From an uncultured bacterium (lineage in GTDB: Bacteria; Pseudomonadota; Gammaproteobacteria; Burkholderiales; Burkholderiaceae_E), in contig CAIVPX010000052.1 in the NCBI GenBank assembly GCA_903907905.1, positions 62,001-126,000 of the forward strand: DNA of 64,000 bases. Direction: 5' to 3'. The position numbers were made by a program, and so were the translations under genes. The notes beneath the pieces are model-generated. The model did no database searches. It was not told the origin of the DNA and saw only the letters and a program-made list of their open reading frames with translations. This document shows, piece by piece, positions 44,615 to 63,270 of the stretch. The first letter of the stretch is position 1, and the number at the start of each line of letters is the position of its first letter.

Positions 44615-46003
44615 TCAGAGCCCGACGGCCTCCTTCACCAAGGTGCCGAGTTCGCGTCTGAGCTTGGCGCGCACCCCCGCATGCGCCTTTGACGCATTGA
44701 GGTTACGCAGTTCATAGGGGTCGTCACTCAGGTCGTACAACTCGTCGAGTTCGCCATCACGCCCGCGGTTGACCCAATGGATGTACTTGTAGCGCTCGGT
44801 CCGGATGGCCTTGTAGGTCATGCCAACCAGCCAGGGCATGGCGTTTTCGGCCCAGTACTCGACCAGCACGCCTTGCCGAAGACGCGTACGCGCCGAGCCA
44901 AACATCGGAACGAGTGAGCGCCCTTGAATCTGCGGACCGGGCTTGCCGCCGGCAAGTTCGATCAGGGTGGGCGCAATGTCCTGGCAGATCACCAGACCCG
45001 ACCGGACCGAGCCCGCCTTGATCAGTGACGGAAAGCGAACCGCAAAGGGCGATCGGATGCCCTCTTCGTAGGCGAAACGTCGTTCGGGACCCAGTCCGTG
45101 CTCGCCGAAGAAGTAGCCGTTGTCCCCGAGGAAGACGATGCACGTGTTGTCGAGCTGCCCGCGTTGCTCGAGCGTGTCGAGAATGCGACCCACCCCCTCG
45201 TCGACCGCCGCCATCATTCTCGCGCGAAGGCGGATCTCTTCCTGCGTCCCGGCATGAATGGCCTTGAGAATCTGCTTGGACAGCTTGCCACGCTTGAGAT
45301 CGAAGCACTCGGCCCAGGCGGGCTTGGTCTTGACCACCTCTTGCGGCGGCATCATGTTGGGCGTGGGCGGGAAGATGTCGCGCTTGTACAGGTCGCGATG
45401 TCGCTCGGCGACGACGTAGCCCCCCTGGGCGGAGATTCGGAGCGTGCCATCGGCGGCTTGCTCGGCATCGGGGTGGACGGCCTTGTGTGCGAAAAAAAGC
45501 GAAAAGGGTTTGTCGCGCTTTTTCTTCAGGAACGACACCGCGTGCTCGTTCATGATGTCGGTGATGTAGCCCGAATGCTGGCGGTACCGGCCGTTATGGT
45601 TGAGCATCGGGTCCATCAGCTTGCCGTGCCCGTCATAGCTGATCCAGTGGTCATAGCCCGGCCGGGGCTTGCCGTCATTGCCCATGTGCCACTTGCCGAT
45701 ATGCGCCGTTTCATAGCCCAGGCGCTGCAATTCGAGGTGGTAATTGGGCAGGCGATGGCTCATAGCGTCGCGCGCCACGTTATCGATGATGCCGTGACGG
45801 CTCGCGTACTGGCCGCTGACGATCGAGGCTCGATTGGGCGAACAGATCGGCGTTGTATGAAAGGCGCGGGTGAACAGAGCGCCCTCGTGCGCAATGCGAT
45901 CGATGTACGGCGTCTTCATGTAGGGATGACCGCCCGCGCCGAATTCGTCGTAACGCAGGTCGTCGATCAGGATCACCAGCAGGTTCGGGGGGCGCTTGCG
46001 CAA
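44615..46003 (-). CDS. Type I sulfatase (formylglycine-dependent, arylsulfatase/alkaline phosphatase superfamily)
   Basis: 462 residues from a TTG start with GGAG nearby. The sulfatase signature CSPNR (Cys54 in the C-x-P-x-R core) marks the residue that becomes formylglycine. Metal residues appear in VILIDDLRYDE and FLGDNGYFFGEHG, and HTTPICSPNRASIVSGQYAS is the full active-site context. It removes sulfate from an organic ester. No signal peptide is visible, so it may act inside the cell. No formylglycine-generating enzyme is in the window and must come from elsewhere in the genome. It is followed upstream in transcription by the PanB-like gene on the same strand, 46 bases apart. Confidence 0.9.
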   Translation of the reverse strand: MRKRPPNLLVILIDDLRYDEFGAGGHPYMKTPYIDRIAHEGALFTRAFHTTPICSPNRASIVSGQYASRHGIIDNVARDAMSHRLPNYHLELQRLGYETAHIGKWHMGNDGKPRPGYDHWISYDGHGKLMDPMLNHNGRYRQHSGYITDIMNEHAVSFLKKKRDKPFSLFFAHKAVHPDAEQAADGTLRISAQGGYVVAERHRDLYKRDIFPPTPNMMPPQEVVKTKPAWAECFDLKRGKLSKQILKAIHAGTQEEIRLRARMMAAVDEGVGRILDTLEQRGQLDNTCIVFLGDNGYFFGEHGLGPERRFAYEEGIRSPFAVRFPSLIKAGSVRSGLVICQDIAPTLIELAGGKPGPQIQGRSLVPMFGSARTRLRQGVLVEYWAENAMPWLVGMTYKAIRTERYKYIHWVNRGRDGELDELYDLSDDPYELRNLNASKAHAGVRAKLRRELGTLVKEAVGL

Positions 46004-46049: not shown

Positions 46050-46910
46050 TCAGCGCTTGGCGGCCAGCAGCTCGGCCAAGCGCTGCGCTTCTTCAGGTTT
46101 CATCGAGTAGGAATGATCCGCGTCCGGGAAAGTGCCCGCCCGGACCTCTTCCGCGTAGCGTCGCATTGCGTCGACCGCAATGTCGGAAATCTGCGCGTAG
46201 CGCTTGGTGAACTTGGGCTTGAACTGATCGAACACGCCCAGCAGATCGAAGGCAAGCAGCAACTGGCCGCAGCTTGCCGGGCCGGCACCGATACCGAAGG
46301 TGAAAATATCCACCGCCTCATCCACCGCCTTGGCGACCGCAGCAGGAACCGCCTCAATCTCGAAACCGATCGCACCAGCCTCTTCGATGGCACGTGCGTC
46401 CTCGATGATGCGCATCGCCTCGTCGGCTGTGCGCCCCTGCAGCTTGAAGCCGCCATACTGATGAACAAAGTGCGGGCACATACCCACATGGCTCATGACC
46501 GGCACGCCGGCGTCGGCGACCGCCTTGATGATGTGGGCCTTGTCCTTGCCACCCTGCATCTTCACCACATCGGCGCCGCCTTCCTTCATGAGTCGCAGCG
46601 CATTCATGACGGCCAGGTCGGGGGTTGCGTAGCTGCCATAGGTCATCGCGACCAGCACCATGCAGTTTGGCGCCCCGCGCTTCACGGCCTGGGTGTGAGC
46701 AACCATCATGTCGATGGTGACCGGCAATGTGTTCGCGAAGCCATAGGACACCATGCCCAGGCTGTCGCCCACCGCTGCGATATCGATCCCGGCCCGCTCA
46801 GCCCAGACTGCCGTCGGATAATCGGGGATGGACGCCATCACGACTTTTTCGCCTGCGCGCTTTCGCTGGGCAAGTTCCGGCACGGTGAGTTTTTTGCGTT
46901 CCTGCGTCAT
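46050..46910 (-). CDS. PanB-fold aldolase-like protein (ketopantoate hydroxymethyltransferase family) with altered metal-site residues
   Basis: 286 residues with clear PanB ancestry: AAVGDSLGMVSYG (Asp49, equal to E. coli Asp45), VKMQGGKD (Lys117, equal to Lys112), HVGMCPHFVHQYGGFKLQGR and IEAVP (Glu186, equal to Glu181). Two residues differ: the metal ligand Asp84 of the DLPF segment is Ala88 (VAMTYGSY), and active-site Glu114 is Gln119. The canonical reaction, adding a hydroxymethyl group from methylene-THF to ketoisovalerate, is therefore doubtful. A related carbon-carbon lyase or aldolase is possible. It is encoded next to a sulfatase, not panC, which fits a catabolic role. Confidence 0.8.
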   Translation of the reverse strand: MTQERKKLTVPELAQRKRAGEKVVMASIPDYPTAVWAERAGIDIAAVGDSLGMVSYGFANTLPVTIDMMVAHTQAVKRGAPNCMVLVAMTYGSYATPDLAVMNALRLMKEGGADVVKMQGGKDKAHIIKAVADAGVPVMSHVGMCPHFVHQYGGFKLQGRTADEAMRIIEDARAIEEAGAIGFEIEAVPAAVAKAVDEAVDIFTFGIGAGPASCGQLLLAFDLLGVFDQFKPKFTKRYAQISDIAVDAMRRYAEEVRAGTFPDADHSYSMKPEEAQRLAELLAAKR

Positions 46911-47089
46911 GGTCGGTCTCCTTCATGGATGGATGGCGCAACCCGCCTGCCTGGCGCCGGATACCAACCGACGCTGCACGCCGTCGCGCACTGCCCCCGC
47001 GTTCAGCATAGACTAAGGGGGTTCAGCTTGAACTTCCCATTGTGCCTTGCCCCGTCTCCCACCGCACGTCAGCCAATTTGAAATTCGCG

Positions 47090-47815
47090 ATGAGCGATCT
47101 TGAGCATTTCGCCCTGTTGCTGGCCGTCCTGGGGCTCTCCGCCTGCGCGCCGTTCGATGGCGCAGGCAGCCCGTCCGGCCCGCAGCGATATGAGTCGCTG
47201 GACGGTTCGGAGACGATTCCGCCTTTGCCCAGCTTCGTCTCGCTGGATGAATGCGAAAAGGCCTACGGGTCTGGCGCCTGTTCCACCGCCGCCCGCGTGT
47301 ATGCGCAAAACGAACGCTACCTGCATGCCATGCCCGCGGACGCCGGATCCTGGTACATCCCTTACGCCTACGGCTCGATTGAGCCGGTCATGGCTCGGGC
47401 CTACTTCGCGCCGCCTGCTTTTTATGTGGCCTCACGCCCTGATCGCTACCGCCTGAGCCCTGCGGTGGTTTACCACCCCCGCAGGTTTGATCCTGCAGTG
47501 ATGCGCCAGCACCCCATCACACCACCTGGCGCCCGGCAGTGGGTCGCGCCGCGGGCGCCCGCCGGGCATGAGCGCGGCCCCCCGGAGCGAAGGCTTCCTC
47601 CGGGTAGCACCCCTCCAGGCGCGCCCCGCACATCCGGCGAAGTCCGGCATCCCGGGTCCGTGCAGCCGTCCAAGCCCGGCGCTACAGTGGCTCCCGGCGC
47701 AAGTCCGCCGGCAACCTTGAGCGGCTCGGCAACCAGTCCCGCAACGCCACCTCGAACGGTGAGTCCGAGCACGACCAAGCCCGACTGCATCCGAGTCCCT
47801 CCAGGCAAGTGCTGA
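47090..47815 (+). CDS. Small lipoprotein, possibly DUF1190 (YgiB-like), with Pro-rich tail
   Basis: About 241 residues from the ATG at 47090; a GTG at 47042 is an alternative. A hydrophobic start with lipobox LSAC predicts a lipoprotein, though the n-region lacks the usual positive charge. Residues about 30-100 contain paired cysteines (DECEKAYGSGACS) and SWYIPYAYG, reminiscent of DUF1190 proteins. The C-terminal 90 residues are rich in Pro, Gly, Ser and Thr and look disordered, ending in a Cys. Function unknown. It is alone on the plus strand between two minus-strand groups. Confidence 0.55.
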   Translation: MSDLEHFALLLAVLGLSACAPFDGAGSPSGPQRYESLDGSETIPPLPSFVSLDECEKAYGSGACSTAARVYAQNERYLHAMPADAGSWYIPYAYGSIEPVMARAYFAPPAFYVASRPDRYRLSPAVVYHPRRFDPAVMRQHPITPPGARQWVAPRAPAGHERGPPERRLPPGSTPPGAPRTSGEVRHPGSVQPSKPGATVAPGASPPATLSGSATSPATPPRTVSPSTTKPDCIRVPPGKC

Positions 47816-47857
47816 ACCGGCCGTGCGCTGACCCCAAGACGCCGTACGAAGCCTCGC

Positions 47858-48673
47858 TCAACGGCCCTGCCAGACAGGCTTTCGCTTTTCCGCATAGGCA
47901 CGCAGCGCCTCGGCATGATCATTTGTCTCTCGAACGACACGCTGGGCTCGCTCCGCAAATCGAACCCCGTCCTCCAGCCCGCGCTCGATCGCCTCGCTCA
48001 AGGCCAACTTGAAGGCCTGGGCTGTCAGGGGTGGGACGTTTTCAATGATTTCCATCGCCAACGCGCGGCAATGCGCCATCAGCCGATCGGGCTCGACCAC
48101 CTCATTGACGAAGCCGATCTCGCGCGCCTGATCAGCCGACAGGGTGCGGCCAGTGACGCCCCACTCGTAGGCCCTGCTGTAGCCGATGATTTGCGGCATG
48201 AGCGCCAGACTGGCGTCATCGGGGACGATCCCCCGGCGGGTGAACACCCAGCCGAAGCGTGACTGCGTGGACGCAATGCGGATATCGCAGCCCGCTGCGA
48301 TGCCAATACCCGACCCGATTGCCGGACCATTCACCGCTGCGATGGCCGGCTTGGACAAACGTCGCAGATCGATCACCACCTTCCGGATATCGGCCTCGTG
48401 CGGAAACAACTCCTCACGCAGCGAGGGGTTGGGCGGTTCGAGCGACTTACCCTCGGCCGTCATGCGCTTGATGTTCCCGCCGGAGCAGAAAATTGTTCCG
48501 GAGCCGGTGAGAATCAGCGCCCTGGCATTGGAGTCGGATTCAATACGCGCGAACTCGCTCACGAGTTCGCCATTCATGACCCAATTGACGGCGTTGCGGG
48601 CCAGCGGATCGTGAATGGTGACCACCACGATGCCGTGCTCGTCCTGCTCGGTTTGAATGAACTGGTAGCTCAC
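47858..48673 (-). CDS. Crotonase-family protein lacking both hydratase glutamates
   Basis: 271 residues from a GTG overlapping the previous stop (GTGA). The oxyanion-hole segments FCSGGNIKRM and GPAIGSGIGIAAGCDI are present. The first catalytic Glu position is Gly (GSGIG) and the second region reads VFTRRGIVPDDAS, as in isomerase-type crotonases where an Asp acts. A classical enoyl-CoA hydratase call is therefore doubtful; an enoyl-CoA isomerase or CoA-ester hydrolase fits better. It is the last gene of the ten-gene operon and should act on the product of the two acyl-CoA dehydrogenases. Confidence 0.9.
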   Translation of the reverse strand: MSYQFIQTEQDEHGIVVVTIHDPLARNAVNWVMNGELVSEFARIESDSNARALILTGSGTIFCSGGNIKRMTAEGKSLEPPNPSLREELFPHEADIRKVVIDLRRLSKPAIAAVNGPAIGSGIGIAAGCDIRIASTQSRFGWVFTRRGIVPDDASLALMPQIIGYSRAYEWGVTGRTLSADQAREIGFVNEVVEPDRLMAHCRALAMEIIENVPPLTAQAFKLALSEAIERGLEDGVRFAERAQRVVRETNDHAEALRAYAEKRKPVWQGR

Positions 48674-49824
48674 GCGTGATCTCCCCGGAAGGCCGCCATG
48701 TCCTCGCGCATCAACCCTGCGAGCGCCTTGCGATGAAACGGCGCGGTGCCATAGCTTGCAGCGGCCGCAAGCGCCCGGTGGTAGCCCAGTTCAAGCGGAT
48801 AGTCTCGGTAGTAACCGACCGCGCCGTGAATCTGGTGGGCCGTGCGGGTGAGCGCGGGAATGGCTTCACTGGCCTTGGCCTTGGCCATCGACACCTCCCG
48901 CAACGCCGGCCGGCCCGAGGCCAAGCGTGCCGCCGCCTGACGCGACAGCAGTCGGGTAACCGTGAGGTCACGAAGCATTTCGGCGCAGTGGTGTTGAACA
49001 CCCTGAAAGCTTCCGATCGGTCGGCCAAACTGAACCCGGGTGCGGGCATAGTCGAGCGTGAGATCGAGCGCGAATTGTCCAACGCCGGTCAACTCAGCCG
49101 CTTTCATTGCGGCCCCACGCTGTATCAATTGGCGCACGGGTTGAGCCACTGCACCGAGCGTTCCCACGAACTGCGAGGGGTCCACCGCGACCTGATCGAA
49201 CCTCACCTCCCAGAGCGCCTCCCCGCCAGCCGTCTTGAGACGCGTGCGCGACACACCCGGCGAGCCAGCGGGTACCACCACCAGCGCCAGGTCATCAGCG
49301 GCTTCGCCAAATCGTGCGACGCATACGATGGTGTCGGCCACACCTGCATCGCGAACAAAAAGCTTGGTGCCATCGATTTGGTATGACCCGCCAACCCCGG
49401 ACAGTCGGGTACGAATGTCGGCAGGTTGCAAACCACCACCGGGCTCCTGCAGGGCCACCGTCAGCAGGGACTCACCCGATGCGATGCGTGGCAACCAGTG
49501 AGCGCGCTGTTCGGCATTGCCGGCTTCGAGCAGCAGCAGACCCGACTCCACCACGGACGAGAAGAGCGGGCTGGGCAAACTCGCCTGCCCGAGCGCCTCG
49601 AAGATCAGTGAGAGTTCGAGCATGGTAAAGCCCGAGCCACCGTATTCGGCTGGAAAGACCGCACCGGCCCAGCCCATCTCGATCATGCGCTGCCAGACGC
49701 TTGGGTCGAATCCGTGCTCGGACGACTCCCACTCGCGCACGCGCGCGGCGGGTGCCGCCTCCTGCGCGAACTCGAGCGCAGTCCGGTGAATGAGCGCCTG
49801 ATCTTCGTTGAGCGTGATATCCAT
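48670..49824 (-). CDS. Acyl-CoA dehydrogenase family protein, divergent subunit
   Basis: 384 residues from the ATG at 49824 with AAGGAGCG just upstream. Overall fold marks are MGWAGAVFPAEYGGSGF, TRVQFGRPIGSFQGVQH and HQIHGAVGYYRDYPL. The FAD-binding segment that usually reads TEP..GSD is degenerate (ALQEPGGGLQ). It is coded 13 bases after a more canonical acyl-CoA dehydrogenase, and such pairs often form one alpha2-beta2 enzyme, as in steroid side-chain breakdown. It may be the partner subunit carrying only one catalytic element. Confidence 0.9.
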   Translation of the reverse strand: MDITLNEDQALIHRTALEFAQEAAPAARVREWESSEHGFDPSVWQRMIEMGWAGAVFPAEYGGSGFTMLELSLIFEALGQASLPSPLFSSVVESGLLLLEAGNAEQRAHWLPRIASGESLLTVALQEPGGGLQPADIRTRLSGVGGSYQIDGTKLFVRDAGVADTIVCVARFGEAADDLALVVVPAGSPGVSRTRLKTAGGEALWEVRFDQVAVDPSQFVGTLGAVAQPVRQLIQRGAAMKAAELTGVGQFALDLTLDYARTRVQFGRPIGSFQGVQHHCAEMLRDLTVTRLLSRQAAARLASGRPALREVSMAKAKASEAIPALTRTAHQIHGAVGYYRDYPLELGYHRALAAAASYGTAPFHRKALAGLMREDMAAFRGDHA

Positions 49825-49837
49825 GATGCGTCGCTCC

Positions 49838-51013
49838 TTATTTGGGCAGGCCGAGGCCGCGCTGCGCGACCACGTTTCGGGTGATGTCGAAACCGCCCGC
49901 GGCGAACTGAAAGTACAGACGGTCGCGATATTCGAGCTCGACGTCACCGTCGAGCTGCGCCCAGGGCGACCCGCCGCGAAGGGGACCGAAGGCGCCCAGC
50001 ATTTCGAGGCCGGCCGCATCGAGTCTGCGGGCCGTCTCACGCTTGACCAGCACCGCGAGCGAGGTCTCGTGCTGCGGGCGCAGCCCCCTGGCGTGCAGTG
50101 ACGCGAGCCAGTAGGTGGTGAGGCGGGCGCCTTCTGCCTCGATGGCCAGCCGAACCAGCTCGTCCTGCACCTGCGGGTCTTCGATCGGCGCGGGCGCGCC
50201 GCCCACCCCCTCGCTACACCAGCCAAGCAGGCGATCAATCTGAAAGGCTGGCAGACCGTAGCTGGCCAGCGCCGCCCGCTCGAAGTCGATCGCGCCCATC
50301 ACGACCTTCCAGCCCTCGTTGACCTCACCCATCACCATGGCGCGCGGTACCCGAACCTGATCGAAGTAGACCGCGTGATGTGTCCAGCCCGCCAGGGTGG
50401 GATGGCGCTGGATCTGCACGCCCGGACTCGTCATGTCGACGATGAACAGGGTCAGACCGCGATGTTTGATTGAAGCGGGATCGGTGCGCGCCAGCACCAG
50501 TCCGTAGTCGGCCATGTGCGCGTCACTGGAAAATGACTTCTGCCCGGTGATGATGAAGTGGTCGCCGTCCTCGACGGCCCGGGTGCTCGCATTGGCCAGG
50601 TCGGAGCCCGCCTCCGGCTCGCTGTAGCCCATGAACCACGCCAGTTCGCCACGAATGATGCGCGGCAGCAGCAATTGCTTCTGCGCCTCCGAGCCAAAGG
50701 CCAGCAGAGAATTGGGCAGGTAGGTGATCGAGCGATCGAGGCCCGGGGCCCGGGCGTACTCCATCTCGTCCCAGAAGATCGCCTGATAAATCCGGCTGCG
50801 CCCGCCACCGCCATACTCGCTCGGCCAACCCATGCCAATGTACCCGGCCGCACCCAGCTTGCGACGGAAGGCCTTGGTAAATTCGACCGACCACATACCC
50901 TGCTCGTTGGTGTCGCGATGCGCCCGCCACACCGACTCGGTGAGTTCCTTTTTGAGGAAGGACCGCACCTCGGCCCGGAAGGCCCGCTCATCGTCCGTGA
51001 AATCGAAGTCCAT
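49838..51013 (-). CDS. Acyl-CoA dehydrogenase, canonical subunit
   Basis: 391 residues. The FAD/substrate segment YSEPEAGSDLANA is standard; GYIGMGWPSEYGGGG and ITGQKSFSSDAHMADY follow the family. The C-terminal end (FDITRNVVAQRGLGLP) is of the long-known FadE-like branch. It introduces an alpha-beta double bond into an acyl-CoA, passing electrons to ETF, whose genes are not in the window. It comes 11 bases after the double CoA-transferase, so its substrate is likely the CoA ester made by that enzyme. Confidence 0.93.
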   Translation of the reverse strand: MDFDFTDDERAFRAEVRSFLKKELTESVWRAHRDTNEQGMWSVEFTKAFRRKLGAAGYIGMGWPSEYGGGGRSRIYQAIFWDEMEYARAPGLDRSITYLPNSLLAFGSEAQKQLLLPRIIRGELAWFMGYSEPEAGSDLANASTRAVEDGDHFIITGQKSFSSDAHMADYGLVLARTDPASIKHRGLTLFIVDMTSPGVQIQRHPTLAGWTHHAVYFDQVRVPRAMVMGEVNEGWKVVMGAIDFERAALASYGLPAFQIDRLLGWCSEGVGGAPAPIEDPQVQDELVRLAIEAEGARLTTYWLASLHARGLRPQHETSLAVLVKRETARRLDAAGLEMLGAFGPLRGGSPWAQLDGDVELEYRDRLYFQFAAGGFDITRNVVAQRGLGLPK

Positions 51014-51024
51014 ACTGTGATGTC

Positions 51025-53535
51025 CTATGCCAGCACGCCATCGGCCTCGAGACGCGCGAAGTGCGTATCGTCGATACCAAGAATTTCGCCAAGGATGTGT
51101 CGGGTGTGCTCCCCCAGCAGGGGCGCGCGCCGGTAATCGACCGCGAAGCCATCGGTTCGCCAGGGCAGCCCCAACTGTTTACGGACGCCCACCACCGGAT
51201 GGTCGGTGGTGATCACGGTCCCGCGTTCAAGCAGGATGGGATCATCAAGCAACTGATCGACCCGAACCACAGGACCGGCGGCGATGTAGTGGCCTTGCAG
51301 CAATTCGGTCACCTCACGGCTGCTGTGGCGCCCGGTGAAGCGCCGTAGGTCGCGCTCGATCTCATCGACCCGCTCGCACCGGCCCCGAGCTTCGCTCAGC
51401 CCCTTGTCATCCATCCAGTCCTCGCGCCCCAGGGCGGCGCAGAGACGCCGCCAGGCCTCGTCATCGCGCACGCTGATCGCCACCCAGTCGCCCTGTTCCC
51501 GGCACGGAAAAATACCGTGCGGGGCACAGAACGGATCGCGGTTGCCGATCCGGGTGGGCTCGCGATCATTGAGGGTGAGATCAACGACAGCTTCGGGGAT
51601 GAGCGTCAGCATGGCCTCATACATCGCCAGGTCGACGAACTGCCCTTTGCCCGTGATTCGTCGCTGCAGCAGCGCGGACAGAATGGCAAAGCCCGCACAG
51701 GTGCCGGCGAGGGGGTCGGGCAACACGCCACCGAGAATGCGGGGCGCCCCGCCCGCGTAGCCGGTGACGTCAGCCACGCCGGAAAACAGGTTGACGGCGC
51801 TGTGGAGTCCGCGCGCCATCTTCATGGGACCGGTCCGACCGAATGCGCCGCAGGACACCGCGATCAGCCCGGGGTTCACCGCCTTCAGAGACTCATAGCC
51901 CAGCCCGAGTTTGTCGATGACCCCGGTGGAAAAGTTGTCGACGATGACGTCGACCTTTTCGGCAAGCTGGCGCACGAGCTTGCGGCCCTCATCGGTGGTC
52001 ATATCGACCCGGCAGCTCTTCTTGCTGCTGTTGAGCAGATTGAAGTAACCGGTGGCGTCCGGATTGCCCTCAAAGCCCGGAAGAAAAGGCGGCGCACTGC
52101 GCGAGGTCATGCGCTTGCCGGATTCGACAATGATCACGTCAGCCCCCAGCCAGGCCAACCAGAGCGTGCAGAACGGAATCGCAATGAACTGGCCGAGATC
52201 GAGCACCGTGACACCCGCAAGGGGTCGATAGGGCCCGGACGCGCCCCCATGTTCAGCGGCAACGCCCGCACTCGCTGCACGGTCCCGGTCACGGGCCATC
52301 GCACTCGAGGCGCGCTCGGGCGATTGCGGCCAGCCCCGCGAGAGCAGCGCCTCGGTATGCTCGCCCAGGCGCGGCGCGGCGCGGCGCAGCGACCAGGGTG
52401 TGTCACCCATGACCAGGGGTGCACCAGGCATTTGAGCCTGGCTCGCACCCAGTTGAACCGTCACGAGACTCTTGCGGGCCCGCACCTGGGCCGACTCGAC
52501 GGTCTTGCGAACCGGGTAGAACGGGAACACCGGCAGCTGTTGCTCGCCCGCGATCCGGTAAAGCTCATCGCCGGAGAGGGTCATCGTCCAGCCGATCAGT
52601 CGCTCGCGCAACTCGATCCAGTGGGCAGTTCGACCACGCGGGGTGGAAAACTTTTCATCGCGGGCCCAGTCGGGGCTACCCATGGCCTCGATCAGCCGCT
52701 GCCAGTGGAGCTCCATGGGTGCCGCAATCGTGACATAGCCATCCTTGCACGGCAGATAAAAGTTCGGCATGCGTCCGATCGTGACCGGATTGAGCAGACG
52801 CTCGTAGACGCCCCCGAGGTAGGCATGCGTGGTGACGTCGCGGTGCTGCAGCGACGCAACCGTCGCGTGCTGGCTGAGTTCGACATGACTGCCCCGTCCC
52901 GTTCGCGCGCGCTCATGAACCGCCGCCACGCTGGCGTGCGCCGCAGCAAGCCCCGCCAGCGTCTCGGCAACGAAACAGTTCGGGTGCAGGGGTGGCTCGG
53001 TGTCAAGATTTTCGCTGGCGTCCGGCATGCCCGGGGTGCTGAACGCGAGTCCGCCCATGGCGTAGGTCAGCAGCTCGTCGCCGGAGCGGGCCGCCCATGA
53101 GCCGTCACTGCCAAAGGGGGTGAGCGTGGTGATGATCAACTGGGGACACTGCAGACGCAGCCTTGCAGGGGCCAGGCCCGCCGCGTCGAGCCATCGCCCC
53201 GAAAAGTTGGTGATCAGAATGTCGGCCTGCTCGAGCAGACGACGAAGCGCTTCCCGCGAGTCCGTCTCACCGGGGTCAAAGCGTAGTCCGAACTTGTTGG
53301 TATTGAGATAGGCAAAGAGCCCGCTCGCCTCGGGGTCGGGCCGGTCGTGCGGAAATGGGCCCCGGCTGCGCGACGAGTCGCCGGCTGCAGTCTCGACCTT
53401 GATCACCTGGGCGCCAAAGTCGGCGAGCAACTTGGCCGCGTAGGGCGCGCTGCTCCCTTTCCCGATTTCGACCACTCGAAGACCCGCGAGGGGCCCACAG
53501 GCCCCTTCGTCCGAAAGCAGGGCGCGCTCGCTCAT
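51025..53535 (-). CDS. Tandem class III CoA-transferase (two CaiB/BaiF domains in one chain)
   Basis: 836 residues, roughly twice the usual 400. Domain 1 is about 14-400 (GPLAGLRVVEIGKGSSAPY) and domain 2 about 435-830 (YRPLAGVTVLDLGQFIAIP). The catalytic Asp that carries the CoA anhydride is kept in domain 2 (Asp607, VLPDPLAG) but is Glu191 in domain 1 (FVAETLAG). CaiB enzymes normally work as interlaced dimers; the fusion makes a pseudo-heterodimer with one canonical site. It moves CoA from a donor thioester to the acid to be degraded. Start overlaps the previous stop (ATGA). Confidence 0.92.
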   Translation of the reverse strand: MSERALLSDEGACGPLAGLRVVEIGKGSSAPYAAKLLADFGAQVIKVETAAGDSSRSRGPFPHDRPDPEASGLFAYLNTNKFGLRFDPGETDSREALRRLLEQADILITNFSGRWLDAAGLAPARLRLQCPQLIITTLTPFGSDGSWAARSGDELLTYAMGGLAFSTPGMPDASENLDTEPPLHPNCFVAETLAGLAAAHASVAAVHERARTGRGSHVELSQHATVASLQHRDVTTHAYLGGVYERLLNPVTIGRMPNFYLPCKDGYVTIAAPMELHWQRLIEAMGSPDWARDEKFSTPRGRTAHWIELRERLIGWTMTLSGDELYRIAGEQQLPVFPFYPVRKTVESAQVRARKSLVTVQLGASQAQMPGAPLVMGDTPWSLRRAAPRLGEHTEALLSRGWPQSPERASSAMARDRDRAASAGVAAEHGGASGPYRPLAGVTVLDLGQFIAIPFCTLWLAWLGADVIIVESGKRMTSRSAPPFLPGFEGNPDATGYFNLLNSSKKSCRVDMTTDEGRKLVRQLAEKVDVIVDNFSTGVIDKLGLGYESLKAVNPGLIAVSCGAFGRTGPMKMARGLHSAVNLFSGVADVTGYAGGAPRILGGVLPDPLAGTCAGFAILSALLQRRITGKGQFVDLAMYEAMLTLIPEAVVDLTLNDREPTRIGNRDPFCAPHGIFPCREQGDWVAISVRDDEAWRRLCAALGREDWMDDKGLSEARGRCERVDEIERDLRRFTGRHSSREVTELLQGHYIAAGPVVRVDQLLDDPILLERGTVITTDHPVVGVRKQLGLPWRTDGFAVDYRRAPLLGEHTRHILGEILGIDDTHFARLEADGVLA

Positions 53536-54650
53536 CCCTGGGCCCGCATCGACTGCAAGCGGCCGAGCACCTCCTCGGCCTCGCGGACCATACCGAGCAA
53601 AATCTCTCGGGCCGGACGCTTTTTCTTAAGCATGCCGCCGATTTGTCCGACCGGATTATTGATGAGCTCGGCCCGTCCTGCTGCATCGGCTGCCGCGATG
53701 AAGTCATCCATCAGCACGCCCTGCAAGGGCATGGGCAGTGGCTTGAGCCCGGAGTCGTCCCAGGCCTTGATGACCGGATTGTCATAGTCGCGTGCGGTCT
53801 TGCCCGTGTAGCACCGAGTGATGACGAAATCCTCGGCCGAGCCGCGAATGATTTCCTCCTGATGTACGGGGTACAGATCAGACTCTTCCGCCAGCAGGAA
53901 GGCAGTACCCACCCAGGCCCCCACCGCCCCCAGCGACAACCCGGCCACCAGGGTGCGCCCATCGGCGATGGCACCGGCAGCAACAACCGGCGTGGGACCG
54001 ACGGCATCGACCACCATGGGAATCAGCGGGAAATTGGCGATCTTGCCGGTGTGCCCGCCGGCCTCGTAGCCCTGCGCGATCACGTAGTCGACACCTGACT
54101 TGGCCTGGCGCTCTGCGCCACGAACATTGCCGACCAGTCCCATTACCTTGGTGCCCACCTGATGCGCCATGGGCACCACCCACGACGGATCGCCCAGCCC
54201 GGCTGCAAACACGGCGATACGCTCCTCCAGGCACACATCCACCTGGGCCCGGATGAACTCTGGCGACATCACCCCACCCTTGGCAACCAGGCGGGCCAGC
54301 CCGAATCGATCCATCAACGAGCGAACGAATTCGGCATGCTTCGGATGATCGCGTTCGATGCGGGCCCGCATCTCCTCTCGGTCGGGGGTCGCATCGACCA
54401 TGCTGGCTGGCAGGAGCAAGTCAACACCAAAGGGTTTGTCAGTGAGATTGCGCACCGCGCGGATTCGCCGGCGCACTTCGTCGGCACCCAGCCAGGAGCA
54501 GCCCAGAATACCCATCCCCCCCGCCTCGGACACCGCTGCAACCAGCTTTGGGGGCGTGGCCTTGCCCTTGACGCCCATGCCAGCGAGAAAGATCGGATAC
54601 TCGATGCCCAGGTCATCGCACAGGCTGGTGTGAAGTACGGTCTTGCCCAT
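53532..54650 (-). CDS. Nitronate monooxygenase / 2-nitropropane dioxygenase-like flavoprotein
   Basis: 372 residues, FMN-dependent TIM barrel. IEYPIFLAGMGVKGKATPP, AVSEAGGMGILG, VIAQGYEAGGHTG and VVAAGAIADGRTL are the family's FMN-binding stretches. The His of EAGGHTG, the usual catalytic base, is present. Many members oxidise nitronates, but others act on unsaturated acyl groups, so the substrate is open. Its position between an ABC importer and CoA-dependent enzymes suggests an early oxidation of the imported compound. Confidence 0.9.
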   Translation of the reverse strand: MGKTVLHTSLCDDLGIEYPIFLAGMGVKGKATPPKLVAAVSEAGGMGILGCSWLGADEVRRRIRAVRNLTDKPFGVDLLLPASMVDATPDREEMRARIERDHPKHAEFVRSLMDRFGLARLVAKGGVMSPEFIRAQVDVCLEERIAVFAAGLGDPSWVVPMAHQVGTKVMGLVGNVRGAERQAKSGVDYVIAQGYEAGGHTGKIANFPLIPMVVDAVGPTPVVAAGAIADGRTLVAGLSLGAVGAWVGTAFLLAEESDLYPVHQEEIIRGSAEDFVITRCYTGKTARDYDNPVIKAWDDSGLKPLPMPLQGVLMDDFIAAADAAGRAELINNPVGQIGGMLKKKRPAREILLGMVREAEEVLGRLQSMRAQG

Positions 54651-54694
54651 CGTGTTCAGCTCCCTATCGGATCAAGGTCTGTTGAAAATTGCGG

Positions 54695-55597
54695 CTACCG
54701 GCCGCGTAACTTGGGGTCGAGCAGGTCGCGAATCGCGTCACCGAGCAGGTTTGAGGCCAGCACGGTGAGGCAAATGGCGAGTCCAGGAAAAATCACCACC
54801 CATGGGGCGGTGAGCGCGAGCGAGGTGGCCGAGCCGGCCATCATCAGCCCCCACGAGGCCTCGGGCTCCTGGATGCCCGCACCCAGGTAGTCGAGGGCCG
54901 CCTCCTGAACGATCGCCAGGCCCAGGTAGGCGGTGGCAATCACCAGCAAAGGCGCAAAGGTGTTGGGCAGGATGTGCCGCAGGATGATGCGTGCGTCCGA
55001 GCAACCGATGACGAGCGCCGATTCAACGAGGGGGCTGGCCTTGAGCACGAGCACGCTTGAGCGGGCAATGCGGGCGGCGCGCGGCACGATGGGCAGCGCC
55101 AGCGCCACGATCACGTTGGGTAGCGACGGCCCCAGCACCGCGGCCAGCGCCAGCGCCAGCAGCAGCATCGGGAAGGCGAGCAGCGCGTCCATCAGTCGCT
55201 GAGTGAGCGTGTCGATCCAGCCGCCGCGGTAGCTGGTGACGAGACCCAGACCGGCCCCCACGGTCACACCCAGCACGCTTGCGCCCAGCCCCACCAACAA
55301 GGACACCCGCGCGCCGAAGATCAAGCGCGACAGCATGTCCCGACCGAAGGGATCGGTACCGAGCCAGTGAGCCGCACTGGGCGGGGCATTGAGCAATGTG
55401 GAATCGCCAACAGTGGGGTCATAGGGCGCCAGCCATGGCGCTCCCAGCGCGAGAATAGCCATAACCAGCAGCACGATCGCGCCGAGGGCACCCAAGGGTT
55501 GCGCCCGAGCGGCATGCGCCAGGCGCCGGAGCCGAGGCGAAGCGGCAGCAGGTGGTGCTGCGACATGTTGCGCGGGGCGCGGCACAAGCGGATTCAT
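54695..55597 (-). CDS. Peptide-type ABC importer permease (DppC type)
   Basis: 300 residues. AHWLGTDPFGRDMLSRLIFG is the DppC hallmark and the coupling loop reads LKASPLVESALVIGCSDARI. Its start overlaps the stop of the DppB-type gene (ATGA). It precedes the nitronate monooxygenase gene by 44 bases, tying the transporter to the catabolic genes. Confidence 0.94.
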   Translation of the reverse strand: MNPLVPRPAQHVAAPPAAASPRLRRLAHAARAQPLGALGAIVLLVMAILALGAPWLAPYDPTVGDSTLLNAPPSAAHWLGTDPFGRDMLSRLIFGARVSLLVGLGASVLGVTVGAGLGLVTSYRGGWIDTLTQRLMDALLAFPMLLLALALAAVLGPSLPNVIVALALPIVPRAARIARSSVLVLKASPLVESALVIGCSDARIILRHILPNTFAPLLVIATAYLGLAIVQEAALDYLGAGIQEPEASWGLMMAGSATSLALTAPWVVIFPGLAICLTVLASNLLGDAIRDLLDPKLRGR

Positions 55598-56562
55598 TTC
55601 GCCCCCTGATGACGCGTCCGCGGATCGAGCCAGCCATACAGCAGGTCGACACCCAGATTGCCGAGCACGACAATGGAGGCAAGGATCAGGACGATGCCCT
55701 GTGCTGCCGGGTAGTCGCGGTTGAGAATGGAGGTGACGACATACTGCCCGAGCCCCGGCACGTTGAAGACCGCCTCGGTAATGATCAAACCGCCAAACAG
55801 CGCGGACACCTCGAAGCCGATCAGTGTGACCACCGGCAGCAGGCCGTTACGCAGACCATGGTGCAGGACCACGGCCCGCTCACTGAGCCCTTTGGCACGC
55901 GCGGTCCGGATGTAGTCTTCGCCCAACACCTCGAGCATGATCGAGCGGGTCATTCGCGCGATCAGTGCCAGCTGACGCAGTCCCACCGCCAGCGCCGGCC
56001 AGAAGAGCTGGGTGATGCTTTGCCAGGGACTCACCCAGAAGGGCTCCCAGAAGAGCGGCGCACTCCATTGGAAAAAGTGGACGAGCCCGAGAATGAGCAG
56101 CAAGCCCACCCAAAAAGACGGCGCGGCCAGGCCCCCGATGGAAAGCGCACGAAGGCACTGGTCAGTCCAACTCCCCGAGCGCGCCGCAGACACCAGACCG
56201 GCAGGAATCCCCAGCGCAACGGCAATGACCATGGCCATGACCACGATCTGAAGCGTGTAGGGGAAACGCCTGGCGATGTCAGCCGCCACAGGCTGGCCAG
56301 TACGCAGCGAGGTGCCCAGGTTGAAACTGAGCACATCCCCCGCCCAGGCCACAAACTGCACCGGCAGGGGTTGGTCGAGTCCCATCTTGGCCCGAACACC
56401 TGCCAGCTCCTGCTCCGATACTGCACCGGCGCCCGCACCGCTCAGCATGACGGCTGCATCGCCGGGCAACACGCGCATCAGGAAAAAGGCAATGACCGCC
56501 ACCCCAAGGAGCGTGGCCAGTCCGGTGAGCAGTCGCCGGACCAGATAGTCGATCATTGCCAT
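55594..56562 (-). CDS. Peptide-type ABC importer permease (DppB type)
   Basis: 322 residues. The first helix LLTGLATLLGVAVIAFFLM with RVLPGDAA, and the ATPase-contact loop EVLGEDYIRTARAKGLSER, are standard. It pairs with the DppC-type subunit coded with a 4-base overlap. The second ATG two codons on is an equal start candidate. Confidence 0.94.
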   Translation of the reverse strand: MAMIDYLVRRLLTGLATLLGVAVIAFFLMRVLPGDAAVMLSGAGAGAVSEQELAGVRAKMGLDQPLPVQFVAWAGDVLSFNLGTSLRTGQPVAADIARRFPYTLQIVVMAMVIAVALGIPAGLVSAARSGSWTDQCLRALSIGGLAAPSFWVGLLLILGLVHFFQWSAPLFWEPFWVSPWQSITQLFWPALAVGLRQLALIARMTRSIMLEVLGEDYIRTARAKGLSERAVVLHHGLRNGLLPVVTLIGFEVSALFGGLIITEAVFNVPGLGQYVVTSILNRDYPAAQGIVLILASIVVLGNLGVDLLYGWLDPRTRHQGAK

Positions 56563-56587
56563 GAGCCGCGTTCGGTCCGGTGCCAGG

Positions 56588-58231
56588 TCAGGCGCCGAGC
56601 CAGACCTTGTCCATCTGCATGTTGGCGTAAAGATCGTTCAAGGCTTTCCAGCCCTGCACCGAATTGAGATGCGCAGCGCCATAGCCTACCCAGGCAAGAT
56701 TGATCTGATAGAAGGTCTTCATGAAGCTGAGCTGAAACTGCCGGATCAGCTGTGCGCGCTTCGCGCCATCGGGTTCCCGCGACTGCTCGCGATACAAGGC
56801 GTCGAGCGAGTCATCCTTCCACAGGCCGTAATTGCGCCCGCCGTAGCTGGTGTAGCCCTCGCCTAGGATCTGATCGGGCGTTGACCCGCCCATTGCCACG
56901 GAATGCGCCACCAGCTGGAAATCGCCCTTGGTTTCCATCGTGTAGAAGGCGCCCGCGTCGCGAATATCGACGGTGGCGTCGAGGCCGATCTGCTTGAGCT
57001 GGCCCGCCACGTTGATTGCCGAATCGCGAAACGCCGGTACATCACCCCGAGTAAGAATCCCGACCTTGAAACCCTTCGGCACGCCGGCCTGCTCGAGCAG
57101 CGCCTGCGCCCGTTCGCGGTTGGCGTTCATATTGCCGCCCAGTCCCGGCAGCGAGTCATAGCCGGCAAACTGCTTCACCTCGGCCGCGCTGAGGCTGTAG
57201 GGGCTCTCGGGCGGCATCAGCCCCAGGCTGTGGAAAAAGGCCCCCGACAATGGCCCGACGGTGCGGATGAAGGCCTCACGATCGATCGCCAGCGACAGTG
57301 CCTCCCGCACGCGCACATCGTCGAAGGGCTTGCGGGTGACATTGGGAATGAGGTTGACGAAGGTCGGCGTCGGTCGACGCAGCGCCGTGATGCCGGCGAC
57401 ATTCTTCAGAGGCGCGAGCACCGCCTCGTTCGCCATGAAGAAGCAGGCATCGATACGCTTGCTCTGCAAGGCCGCACCGCGCTCGACCTCACCCCGAATC
57501 GGGAACATCTGGATCCGATCCAGCCACGCGGGGGGACCAAAATACTTGTCAAAGCGCGACAGCTCGTACAGCTGACCATCGATCGCCTGAGTGAGCCGGA
57601 AGGGACCGGTTCCCACCACCTGGCGTTTCAGCCCCTGCCCCTGCGCATCCAGCGGCTCGGTCACCGCCTTGTTGACGATGACATTGAAGGGGTTGCTCAC
57701 CAGAAAAAGAAAGTCGGGCTGGGCTTGCGCGAGGCGAATCACGACCTTGAGCGGCCCGGCTGCCTCCATCGACTCGATATTGCCCAGCAGGCCCTTTCGC
57801 GGACTGACGATACCCTTGGGGGGCGACTTGATCCGGTTCAGGCTGTAGATCACGTCATCGGCCGTGAGCGGCGAGCCGTTGTGAAAGACCACCCCGGGGC
57901 GAAGCGTCAGGCTAACGGTCTTACCGTCGGCTGACACCTCGGCTCCGCTGGCGAGGTCGGGCAGCAGGCGCGTGCTGTCGGCAGGATCCTGGCGCATCAG
58001 CGTCGAGTAACAGGGCGCACCTAGGAACTGCGTCAGGTAAGTAGCGGTCTGGTGGACATCAAAATCAGGAGGGTCGCCCCCGTTGCTCACCTTGAGCGTA
58101 CCGCCCCGCTTTTGAGCCTGCGCGGGTGCCCAAGCAGACAGGCCCGGCGCCAGCACGAGCGAACCAGCGCCCGCCTTGAGCAGGCGTCTGCGGGAATCAT
58201 GAGTAAGGGTCGACTGGACGGAATCGGTCAT
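56588..58231 (-). CDS. ABC importer periplasmic binding protein (SBP family 5), Tat-exported
   Basis: 547 residues from the ATG at 58231, chosen for AAGGAGCG upstream. The signal has a twin-arginine motif (SRRRLLKAGAGSL), so it is probably folded before export, unlike the Sec-type binding protein at 40649. Mature marks: KRGGTLKVSNGGDPPDFD and VVFHNGSPLTADDVIYSL, then VVGTGPFRLTQ. It serves the permeases and ATPases coded on both sides in the same operon. Confidence 0.94.
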   Translation of the reverse strand: MTDSVQSTLTHDSRRRLLKAGAGSLVLAPGLSAWAPAQAQKRGGTLKVSNGGDPPDFDVHQTATYLTQFLGAPCYSTLMRQDPADSTRLLPDLASGAEVSADGKTVSLTLRPGVVFHNGSPLTADDVIYSLNRIKSPPKGIVSPRKGLLGNIESMEAAGPLKVVIRLAQAQPDFLFLVSNPFNVIVNKAVTEPLDAQGQGLKRQVVGTGPFRLTQAIDGQLYELSRFDKYFGPPAWLDRIQMFPIRGEVERGAALQSKRIDACFFMANEAVLAPLKNVAGITALRRPTPTFVNLIPNVTRKPFDDVRVREALSLAIDREAFIRTVGPLSGAFFHSLGLMPPESPYSLSAAEVKQFAGYDSLPGLGGNMNANRERAQALLEQAGVPKGFKVGILTRGDVPAFRDSAINVAGQLKQIGLDATVDIRDAGAFYTMETKGDFQLVAHSVAMGGSTPDQILGEGYTSYGGRNYGLWKDDSLDALYREQSREPDGAKRAQLIRQFQLSFMKTFYQINLAWVGYGAAHLNSVQGWKALNDLYANMQMDKVWLGA

Positions 58232-58277
58232 GGCGAACGCTCCTTGTAAATGTTGAGCAGGCAGGGGCAGATGCGAG

Positions 58278-59261
58278 TCACGGAGGGCCCTCGGCACGAA
58301 CATGGCAGGCCACCCAGTGGCCGGGATTGGCCTCGACGAGACGCTGCTCGCGCGTGGCGCAAGCGACCTGCGCATGCGGACAGCGGGTGTGGAAGCGGCA
58401 ACCTGTTGGCGGATTGACCGGGCTGGGCACGTCGCCCTGCAGCAGGGTCTTACGACGTCCGGACCGCGGGTCTGGCACCGGCACGGCCGACAACAGCGCC
58501 TCCGTGTAGGGGTGGATGGGTCTGGCGTAAAGATCGCGCGTCGGCGCGATCTCTACGATGCGCCCGAGGTACATCACCGCCACGCGGGTGGAAATGTGCT
58601 CAACGACCGACAGATCGTGCGCAACAAACAGGTAGGTGAGGCCGAACTTCTGTTGCAGGTCTTCGAGCAGATTGACCACCTGGGCCTGCACCGAGACGTC
58701 GAGGGCCGAGACGGGCTCGTCGCACACCACCAGCTTCGGCTCAACCGCCAGCGCCCGAGCAATACCAATGCGCTGCCGTTGTCCACCGGAAAACTCGTGC
58801 GGATAGCGATGCAGATGCTCGGCCGACAGGCCTACCGTCTCGAGCAGCTCGACCGCGCGATCTTCTCGCGCCTGCCGGCTCGCCCCCAGGCGGTGGATCA
58901 ACAGCGCTTCCGCAATTAACGCGCCCGCGGTCATCCGGGGATCGAGCGAGGCGCTGGGGTCCTGAAACACCATCTGCACGTCTTTGCGCAAGGCACGCCA
59001 TTGCTGGCGGTCCAGCCTGGCCAGGTCGGTGCCGCCAAAGAGGATCTGCCCGGCGTCCGGACGCAACAGGCCGAGAATGAGGCGCGCCGTGGTGGACTTG
59101 CCGCAGCCGGACTCGCCCACCAGCCCCAGGGTTTCGCCCGCCTGGACATCAAAGCTCACGCCATCCACCGCCTGAACACTCTGGCGTTGCCGCGAAAACA
59201 GGGGGGCGGGCAGCGGAAAATGTCGAACCAGTTGTCGCACGCTCAGCAGGGGCGCGTTCAT
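58278..59261 (-). CDS. Peptide-type ABC importer ATPase (DppF/OppF type)
   Basis: 327 residues from the ATG at 59261. Walker [14 protein letters not shown]-loop [11 protein letters not shown], signature [12 protein letters not shown], Walker [13 protein letters not shown], and a C-terminal oligopeptide-binding tail with cysteines ([14 protein letters not shown]). Standard DppF with its own extra C-terminal domain. Second gene of the ten-gene operon, 5 bases after the DppD-type partner. Confidence 0.94.
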
Positions 59262-59266
59262 GGCCG

Positions 59267-60244
<978 letters not shown>

Positions 60245-60381
60245 GTGAATCCTGCTGCGAGAAAGAAAATCACTGTATCGGCCGGCCCTGGCAACGAGGG
60301 CGGCAAAAGAGCCCTGCCGCAGCCGGTCCGAACAACCCCTGAACCCCTTTGCGACGTTATGCCGCACCGGATCCAAGCGTC

Positions 60382-60394
60382 CAATATATTATTG
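60382..60394. promoter_or_regulatory. Perfect AT-rich palindrome in the LysR/ABC divergent spacer
   Basis: CAATA-TAT-TATTG, about 40 bases before the LysR ATG and 138 bases before the ABC operon start, in an AT-rich stretch (about 60380-60430) that stands out from the GC-rich surroundings. It fits the T-N11-A style of LysR operators and is a natural candidate for the regulator's own site controlling both divergent transcripts. Confidence 0.5.
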
Positions 60395-60433
60395 ATGCCG
60401 AATCAAGACGTTTTTCATATCGATTATCGGTAC

Positions 60434-61399
60434 ATGGAGCTTCGACAACTTCGCTACTTCGTCGCAGCGGCCGAAGAACTGCACTTCGGGCGGGCAGCGG
60501 CACGCGTGCATATTTCGCAGCCGCCGCTCAGCCAGCAGATCCAGTCGCTTGAAACCGAGATTGGCGTCGAACTCTTCGAGCGGCTCGGACGGGGCGTTCG
60601 GCTCACCCGCGCCGGCACAGAGTTTCTGCAGCATGCCCGAGGTGTGCTGCGACAGAGCCATCGCGCCGTCGAGCACGCTCAGAGGGCAGCCCGCGGCGAG
60701 ATTGGCGAACTCGAGATCGGTTTCGTGGGCTCCCTCTCGTTTACCTATGTGCCCTGGATGCTTCGGGTCTTCATGGCCCGATACCCCGACATCCGCCTGG
60801 TCCTGCATGAAAAGACCATTGCCGAACAGACCGAGTGGCTCGACGAGGGCCGCCTGCAGATCGGGCTGCTGCGCCCGCCGATCAACCTGCCGGATGTCGA
60901 ATGCGAGACCGTTCTCAGGGAGCCCTTCGCCCTGGCCTTGCCCGTTGACCATCCCCTGGCCGACCTCGACAGCGTTCCGGTGGCGGCGCTTCGCGAGCAG
61001 CCGCTCATCATGCTGCCCCGCACGATCGGTCTTCGCTACTACAGTCAGGTGCTCGGCATGTGCCACCGGGCTGGGTTCAGCCCGCAGGTGGTCCAGGAGA
61101 TCCGGCATCTACCCGCGGCCATCGGCCTGGTGAGTGCAGGCATCGGCCTGACCGTCATTCCGGACTCGCTGCGTTTCCATCGCATGCCCGGCGTCACCTT
61201 TCGAACGATTGACGACTCGATCGAGAAGGCCGAGACAGCCATCGCCTGGCGAAAGGACAATCCCCTGCCGGCGGTCGATCGATTCCGGGATGTTGCGCGG
61301 GAAATCATCGGCTCGGGTCTTGAGGGGCTCGAGCGGGCCATGTCAACAACGCGCTGGTCGCTGGGCGCAAACCGCCGCTTAGGCACACAAGACGCCTGA
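60434..61399 (+). CDS. LysR-family transcriptional regulator
   Basis: 321 residues from the ATG at 60434. The helix-turn-helix is at residues 1-60 (LRYFVAAAEELHFGRAAARV, then SQPPLSQQIQSLE); the effector-binding domain follows with GELEIGFVGSLSFTYVPWML. This is close to BenM/CatM-type regulators of aromatic and acid catabolism. It is divergent from the ten-gene ABC/CoA operon and upstream of a Bug receptor gene by 18 bases, so it probably controls one or both, with a pathway intermediate as inducer. Confidence 0.93.
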   Translation: MELRQLRYFVAAAEELHFGRAAARVHISQPPLSQQIQSLETEIGVELFERLGRGVRLTRAGTEFLQHARGVLRQSHRAVEHAQRAARGEIGELEIGFVGSLSFTYVPWMLRVFMARYPDIRLVLHEKTIAEQTEWLDEGRLQIGLLRPPINLPDVECETVLREPFALALPVDHPLADLDSVPVAALREQPLIMLPRTIGLRYYSQVLGMCHRAGFSPQVVQEIRHLPAAIGLVSAGIGLTVIPDSLRFHRMPGVTFRTIDDSIEKAETAIAWRKDNPLPAVDRFRDVAREIIGSGLEGLERAMSTTRWSLGANRRLGTQDA

Positions 61400-61417
61400 G
61401 GGCGAGGGAGATATCCG

Positions 61418-63270
<1,853 letters not shown>

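Follow-up and report, generated by a model that had tools for sequence, protein, structure and literature searches.

PanB-like proteins with altered active-site residues form a clade associated with oxygenase genes

The PanB-like gene and its locus

The window (the whole analysed stretch, 64,000 nucleotides of DNA from an uncultured bacterium of the order Burkholderiales) contains a gene for a PanB homologue, a sulfatase gene next to it and a more distant panC:

46050-46910, minus strand: PanB-like paralogue of the window type ("A-type"), 286 aa, ATG start (open reading frame, family models, AF2 model)
44615-46003, minus strand: sulfatase with a CSPNR motif in its translation, directly downstream of the PanB-like gene with a 46-bp gap (open reading frame and translation)
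62425-63270, plus strand: panC (pantoate-beta-alanine ligase), 15.5 kb from the PanB-like gene on the same contig (genome search)

The PanB-like protein matches PF02548 with 302.3 bits in a profile search and passes the cut-offs of TIGR00222 (268.6 bits vs 207.55) and NF001452 (296.2 vs 272). Its AF2 model (pLDDT 91.6) has the PanB TIM-barrel fold: the six best structural matches are all PanB (Z 28.6-34.1), the first of them being 3vav (Z 34.1, 41% identity over 238 residues). Next come PEP mutase, isocitrate lyase and dimethylmalate lyase enzymes with Z of about 18 to 19. This superfamily, which includes 2-methylisocitrate lyase and dimethylmalate lyase, shares the TIM-barrel with the window protein; compared by fold alone, it differs in a Z far under that of PanB and an identity of 12-18%. 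Another open reading frame of the window (21608-22489, plus strand) has a weak PF02548 match (25.4 bits) and probably codes for a member of the isocitrate lyase/PEP mutase superfamily.

In the E. coli PanB structure we take Asp45 and Asp84 to bind the metal, Glu181 to be the catalytic base and Ser46 and Lys112 to contact the substrate. The retrieved part of a review describes PanB as metal dependent, with Mg preferred and the metal assisting enolisation (PMC7770189); the mechanism and a folate-cleaving side reaction are among the subjects treated in PMC4814558, as far as its retrieved text goes. Alignment of the window protein to E. coli PanB (1m3u) places the relevant codons as follows:

46764-46766, minus strand: Asp49 (E. 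coli Asp45), kept
46647-46649, minus strand: Ala88 (E. coli Asp84), acidic residue lost
46560-46562, minus strand: Lys117 (E. coli Lys112), kept
46554-46556, minus strand: Gln119 (E. coli Glu114), changed
46470-46472, minus strand: His147 (E. coli Gln142), gained, present in 95 of 95 variants
46359-46361, minus strand: Glu184 (E. coli Val179), gained, on strand 182-186 shared with the catalytic Glu186 (alignment and AF2 model)
46353-46355, minus strand: Glu186 (E. coli Glu181), kept

The first aspartate of the metal pair is thus present and the second is replaced by alanine, while the equivalents of Ser46, Lys112, His136 and Glu181 are all kept (Ser50, Lys117, His141 and Glu186). Every residue that the initial annotation had read by eye (Asp84 to Ala88, Glu114 to Gln119, with Asp45, Lys112 and Glu181 retained) agrees with this alignment, but the equally diagnostic changes of Val179 to Glu and Gln142 to His had been missed. 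Since Glu184 and Glu186 both belong to strand 182-186 in the model, strand alternation predicts that their side chains should face the same side.

The initial annotation had also pointed out that the gene neighbour was a sulfatase and not panC. The sulfatase is indeed directly downstream, but it is not a conserved partner. In relatives from the same genus the gene order is M24 peptidase-TctC-sulfatase-panC, with no panB at that place. Compared with three such relatives (the contig of one, L208, stops within the sulfatase), the window has about 16 kb (approximately 46050-62400) parting the sulfatase from panC, and the PanB-like gene is at one edge of this block. Besides the PanB-like gene, the block holds genes for acyl-CoA enzymes, an oligopeptide ABC transporter, a LysR regulator and TctC. 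As the sulfatase adjoins panC in the genus relatives, it is a resident gene that came to adjoin the PanB-like gene by insertion, i.e., an accidental neighbour. A role as pathway partner was rejected: in a phmmer search with the window sulfatase against six-frame translations of the loci, strong matches were confined to the window's own copies and to panC loci of genus relatives (900 and 316 bits); weaker ones were found at L059 (146 bits) and L163 (35 bits). The acyl-CoA genes at 47858-54650, also considered as partners, gave only scattered weaker matches at other loci. Within them, 51025-53535 (minus strand) is a single 836-aa open reading frame with two tandem CoA-transferase family III domains.

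A variant clade distinct from canonical PanB

Relatives of the window protein comprise the window type (A-type) and a sister type (C-type), both assigned on positions 88, 119 and 184. Among 46 A-type, 49 C-type and 50 canonical proteins, positions 88, 119, 147 and 184 form a signature. It reads [A/S/C]88, Gln119, His147, Glu184 in 95 of 95 variants (AQHE in 17, SQHE in 29, CQHE in 49) and D-E-Q-V/L in 50 of 50 canonical proteins (DEQV in 48, DEQL in 2); the window protein carries it as AQHE. Because the types were assigned on the other three positions only, His147 is an independent confirmation. In the alignment, position 119 is Gln in 46/46 A-types and 50/50 C-types and Glu in 50/50 canonical proteins, whereas position 88 is Ser or Ala in the A-types (29 and 17 of 46), Cys in 50/50 C-types and Asp in 50/50 canonical proteins. 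Being fixed in this way, the two changes are not a matter of chance or a sequencing oddity. Conservation among the variants extends to 59 columns invariant over 81 sequences.

Trees were built on subsets of 93, 56 and 54 sequences. A quick tree of 93 rows supported the variant group with 100. In the 56-row tree, from which the trait columns (88, 119, 140, 147 and 184) had been removed, the variants formed one clade (99/98) separate from canonical PanB, with the A-type and the C-type each well supported inside it. The variant clade is therefore well supported, and the suggestion of the initial annotation that these changes mark a clade of paralogues was borne out. Its expectation that such genes would automatically be named panB proved right as well: in addition to the TIGR00222 score given above, the NCBI PanB models accept both A- and C-types, and the panB label is also attached to a C-type gene from a plasmid of Methylobacterium nodulans. 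The PanB-like genes of L049 (titled Euryarchaeota) and L037 (titled Acidobacteria) group with those of SAR116 and Burkholderiales, which probably reflects binning errors in metagenome-assembled genomes.

Besides the window protein, the window genome (completeness rated 100%, 190 contigs) encodes one more full-length PanB homologue, and both are non-canonical. This second protein is of the C-type, is encoded on contig C146, shares 54% identity with the first and carries Cys88, Gln119, His147 and Glu184. A second, canonical panB, for which the initial annotation had advised looking, is absent from this genome, and none was seen in the five genus genomes examined. In a survey of 74 genomes of the family, a PanB match was found in 49 and panC in 56. 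Intersection of the two tables leaves 11 of the 56 panC-bearing genomes without any PanB homologue, among them G037 and G039, two of the four genus relatives. As panC without any PanB homologue is common in the family, its presence there does not require the variants. The finding hints at salvage of pantoate, or at ketopantoate formation by an unrelated enzyme, and it weakens the idea of the variant as a replacement PanB of the genus.

The variants are distributed patchily: they occur in 8 genomes out of 399 sampled from the order and, within the family, in 6 out of 74. Of 50 variant-carrying genomes searched, 31 have a canonical PanB as well, judged by score (two pairs among the 50 entries are the same assembly, and 28 of the 31 were checked by residues). 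Linkage of panC and panB is frequent but not universal; here, panC lies within 1.5 kb of 0/37 A-type, 0/42 C-type and 20/63 canonical genes.

Gene neighbourhoods of the variant types

According to an HMM scan, an oxygenase gene lies within 150 bp of the PanB-like gene and is co-directional with it in 31 of 41 A-type loci vs 0 of 66 canonical ones. The oxygenases are of unrelated kinds: Rieske/VanA (16 loci), PhyH "c12" (8), two flanking PhyH (2), PhyH "c2" (3) and TauD (2). Within 4.5 kb, an oxygenase was found at 24/31 A-type vs 0/24 canonical loci. The 41-locus count requires at least 300 bp on both sides (which drops L040 and L057), leaves out the window itself and skips 15 duplicate or re-fetched loci, including the A-type L148 and L149, both next to an oxygenase. 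Since the oxygenase HMMs were built from A- and C-type neighbourhoods and favour these types, a Pfam scan of the nearest open reading frames was added. The 73 nearest to A-type genes include Rieske/VanA (11), PhyH (9) and TauD (2), counts that are low because the choice of the nearest frame missed the PhyH gene found by HMM at L038, L043 and L044. For canonical genes, 120 of 121 neighbours were scanned (the right side of L189 was left out); PanC leads with 17, fatty acid desaturase occurs in three, and Rieske/VanA, PhyH and TauD are absent among the 25 families listed, below which rank 35 families with one member each.

In marine Alphaproteobacteria a frequent order is MarR regulator, PanB-like gene, Rieske oxygenase and GcvT-like protein, while in Burkholderiales a PhyH gene precedes the PanB-like gene, and genes for a GntR regulator and TRAP transport are present as well. 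Genes of the GcvT-type family lie within 4.5 kb of 12/31 A-type genes, and the one GcvT-like neighbour tested exceeds the DMSP-demethylase cut-off (448.5 vs 410). For the tested Rieske partner, the nearest solved structure is dicamba O-demethylase; it also resembles 4beta-methylsterol monooxygenase, far under the cut-off. Ten of the 41 A-type loci lack an adjoining oxygenase, six of them being marine alphaproteobacterial loci beside lon and a tRNA-editing gene. No oxygenase adjoining the PanB-like gene was seen at the window locus either. Contig C53 of the same genome carries a TRAP-PhyH "c12" set without a PanB-like gene; the window gene may once have belonged with this set.

The C-type operon, as seen in G042 and the window genome, codes for the PanB-like protein, a GntR regulator, an FA_hydroxylase-family protein, the TRAP subunits P/Q/M and PhyH. 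In the window genome it reaches the end of contig C146, and the remaining PhyH part was matched at the start of C127. GntR is within 300 bp of 27/40 C-type genes, TRAP within 4.5 kb of 17/31, and the hydroxylase-family protein is near 18/31. In several genomes A- and C-type genes share a cluster, and the cluster of L146 holds separate PhyH, GntR and TRAP genes for each of the two types.

A more divergent group, the E-types, joins the A/C clade with support of 99/99 in the 54-row tree, which includes the trait columns and has long branches and a bootstrap not fully settled. The gained Glu is present in 6/6 E-types. The equivalent of Asp45 is found in 0/4 (rows with letters there) and those of Asp84, Lys112 and Glu114 in 0/6 each, while His136, Glu181 and Asp217 are kept in 6/6 each. 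One published protein, RHE_PE00443 of Rhizobium etli, is the second PanB paralogue of this species. The panB mutant is auxotrophic despite its presence, and its expression fails to complement that mutant ("data not shown"); section 5 of the paper does not give its clade, signature or function (PMC3082293). The gene lies with others that code for a hydroxylase of the desaturase type, a MocE ferredoxin and a reductase. This set resembles the MocDEF rhizopine O-demethylase. Like the window protein, RHE_PE00443 belongs to the larger clade and has the gained Glu, and its gene stands beside an oxygenase set; it differs in being only about 30% identical and in having also lost Asp45, Lys112 and more. 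In a marine relative (L163), desaturase, PanB-like and Rieske ferredoxin genes follow in a row.

Another group of paralogues, the D-types (L151-L157, e.g., L155 6116-9268), keeps Asp84 and Glu114 and has Ser46 changed to Thr and Gly116 to Asn. Downstream of these genes are a TauE/SafE exporter (in L154, L155 and L157 a Pfam match confirms TauE) and a GcvT-type protein. The same gene kinds (PanB, TauE, GcvT) are present in the methanesulfonate region of Filomicrobium, where a monooxygenase yields formaldehyde and sulfite, according to the retrieved part of PMC4433239. Compared by gene kinds, the Filomicrobium trio matches the D-type loci, in which PanB keeps both acidic residues, and resembles the variant loci in placing a PanB-like gene beside a GcvT-type protein in the setting of a formaldehyde-producing oxygenase.

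Possible function of the variant clade

The window type thus resembles canonical PanB (PF02548, TIGR00222, EC 2.1.2.11) in fold, length and the equivalents of Asp45, Ser46, Lys112, His136 and Glu181, and differs from it in the four changed residues, its own clade and neighbours that are oxygenases and not panC. We speculate, with a probability of roughly 45%, that the variants are a monophyletic family of PanB paralogues which has moved off pantothenate synthesis and been recruited to oxygen-dependent catabolism, where it handles a one-carbon unit. An oxygenase (PhyH/TauD, Rieske or a MocD-like desaturase-type hydroxylase) would hydroxylate or demethylate a compound taken up by the cell; the PanB-like enzyme would then handle a one-carbon unit at the formaldehyde level, transferring it to or from tetrahydrofolate (THF) either directly or via a 2-oxo-acid partner. 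In such an enzyme the canonical metal site may be replaced by an arrangement of Asp49, Glu184, Glu186 and perhaps His147. The window gene would have been parted from its usual oxygenase and TRAP neighbours, relatives of which are on other contigs of the genome.

A one-carbon unit, and not the 2-oxo acid, appears as the common theme of the clade because the oxygenase partners are unrelated and several of them are nearest to demethylases, because GcvT neighbours are of a folate type and because in the E-types the part of the site serving the metal and the 2-oxo acid is gone and the other part persists. The same observations, together with the D-type and Filomicrobium parallel, lead us to prefer a reaction in which THF accepts or donates a carbon at the formaldehyde level. 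A narrower version, which we find rather improbable, is that the clade contains a THF-dependent formaldehyde-activating enzyme capturing formaldehyde from the neighbouring demethylating oxygenases as methylene-THF. The PanB barrel would then have shed its 2-oxo-acid/metal half, partly in A- and C-types and almost wholly in E-types, while the one-carbon half would have been retained and strengthened. A point against the one-carbon reading is that enzymes of the PhyH, TauD and Rieske families catalyse hydroxylation in addition to demethylation, so that formaldehyde is not a necessary product.

The main rival is an aldolase or retro-aldolase of class II type whose metal site has been rebuilt and which acts on a carbon skeleton resulting from the oxygenase reaction (a hydroxylated 2-oxo acid), e.g., by removal of a hydroxymethyl group or by C-C cleavage; one-carbon metabolism would be merely incidental to it. 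It owes this rank to the 2-oxo-acid contacts kept by A- and C-types, nearly all of which have the equivalents of Asp45, Ser46, Lys112, His136 and Glu181 (His136 in 44/46 A-types). With Ser46, Lys112 and nearly always His136 in place, these types may bind a 2-oxo acid and carry out ordinary aldol chemistry, in which Glu184 and His147 could serve as replacement ligands. The fold neighbours next after PanB are consistent with such an enzyme, and an HpcH/HpaI aldolase-family gene is found near 3/31 A-type loci. We consider the aldolase possible but not probable, as by itself it leaves unexplained both the GcvT/DmdA-like folate neighbour and the E-types, which lost the metal/2-oxo-acid half and kept the oxygenase company. 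The "new aldolase-type chemistry" of the initial annotation is possible, but gene context is a more specific pointer to one-carbon chemistry alongside oxygenases. The interpretation given there is partly borne out: the paralogue clade named panB holds, whereas no canonical panB turned up in the genome and the sulfatase is not a conserved partner.

With panC present and canonical panB absent, the window genome might still rely on one or both variants for ketopantoate, in keeping with the completeness rating of a genome whose two full-length homologues are both non-canonical and with the PanB equivalog model being passed. We regard this as very unlikely: panC occurs independently of the variants in G037, G039 and the other family genomes devoid of PanB homologues (11/56 in total), canonical panB accompanies the variants in 31/50 genomes, and panC lies within 1.5 kb of none of the 37 A-type and 42 C-type genes compared. 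The R. etli clade member also failed to complement, this being the one published test in the retrieved text, made on a distant and more eroded protein (PMC3082293). Loss of metal-site residues, together with the position of the window copy beside an insertion and without its usual partners, could instead mark a decaying or catalytically dead paralogue, either a binding or regulatory protein or one on its way to loss. This is likewise very unlikely, since the replacements are invariant and not scattered (Gln119, His147 and Glu184 in 95/95), the 59 invariant columns persist, the frame is intact, the modelled fold is confident and the co-directional gene pairs are stable.

The fold family and one non-complementing paralogue are already known. 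The variant clade, its four-residue signature and the oxygenase association were not found described in the open-licence PMC literature searched and appear to be new in that scope; on panB, the retrieved text of PMC10041152 holds only a fitness row, and that of PMC5068391 yielded nothing on PanB.

PanB is treated as a family with one function, and databases name proteins of the variant clade PanB. Wrong calls of pantothenate prototrophy would follow, as for the window genome, which would be scored panB-positive without a canonical copy. The name would also hide an enzyme family that forms part of oxygenase-linked catabolic modules in Proteobacteria from soil and sea. Should the one-carbon reading be true, the clade would exemplify an aldolase barrel converted to formaldehyde/folate chemistry and would bear on the capture of formaldehyde from demethylation in THF-based organisms.

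Further divergence of PanB-like genes was observed in G065, where contig C91 (11609-20746, partly in L010) carries three of them within about 9 kb. The two whose residues were compared have further changes at metal positions (Asn45/His84 and Ser84/Glu112).
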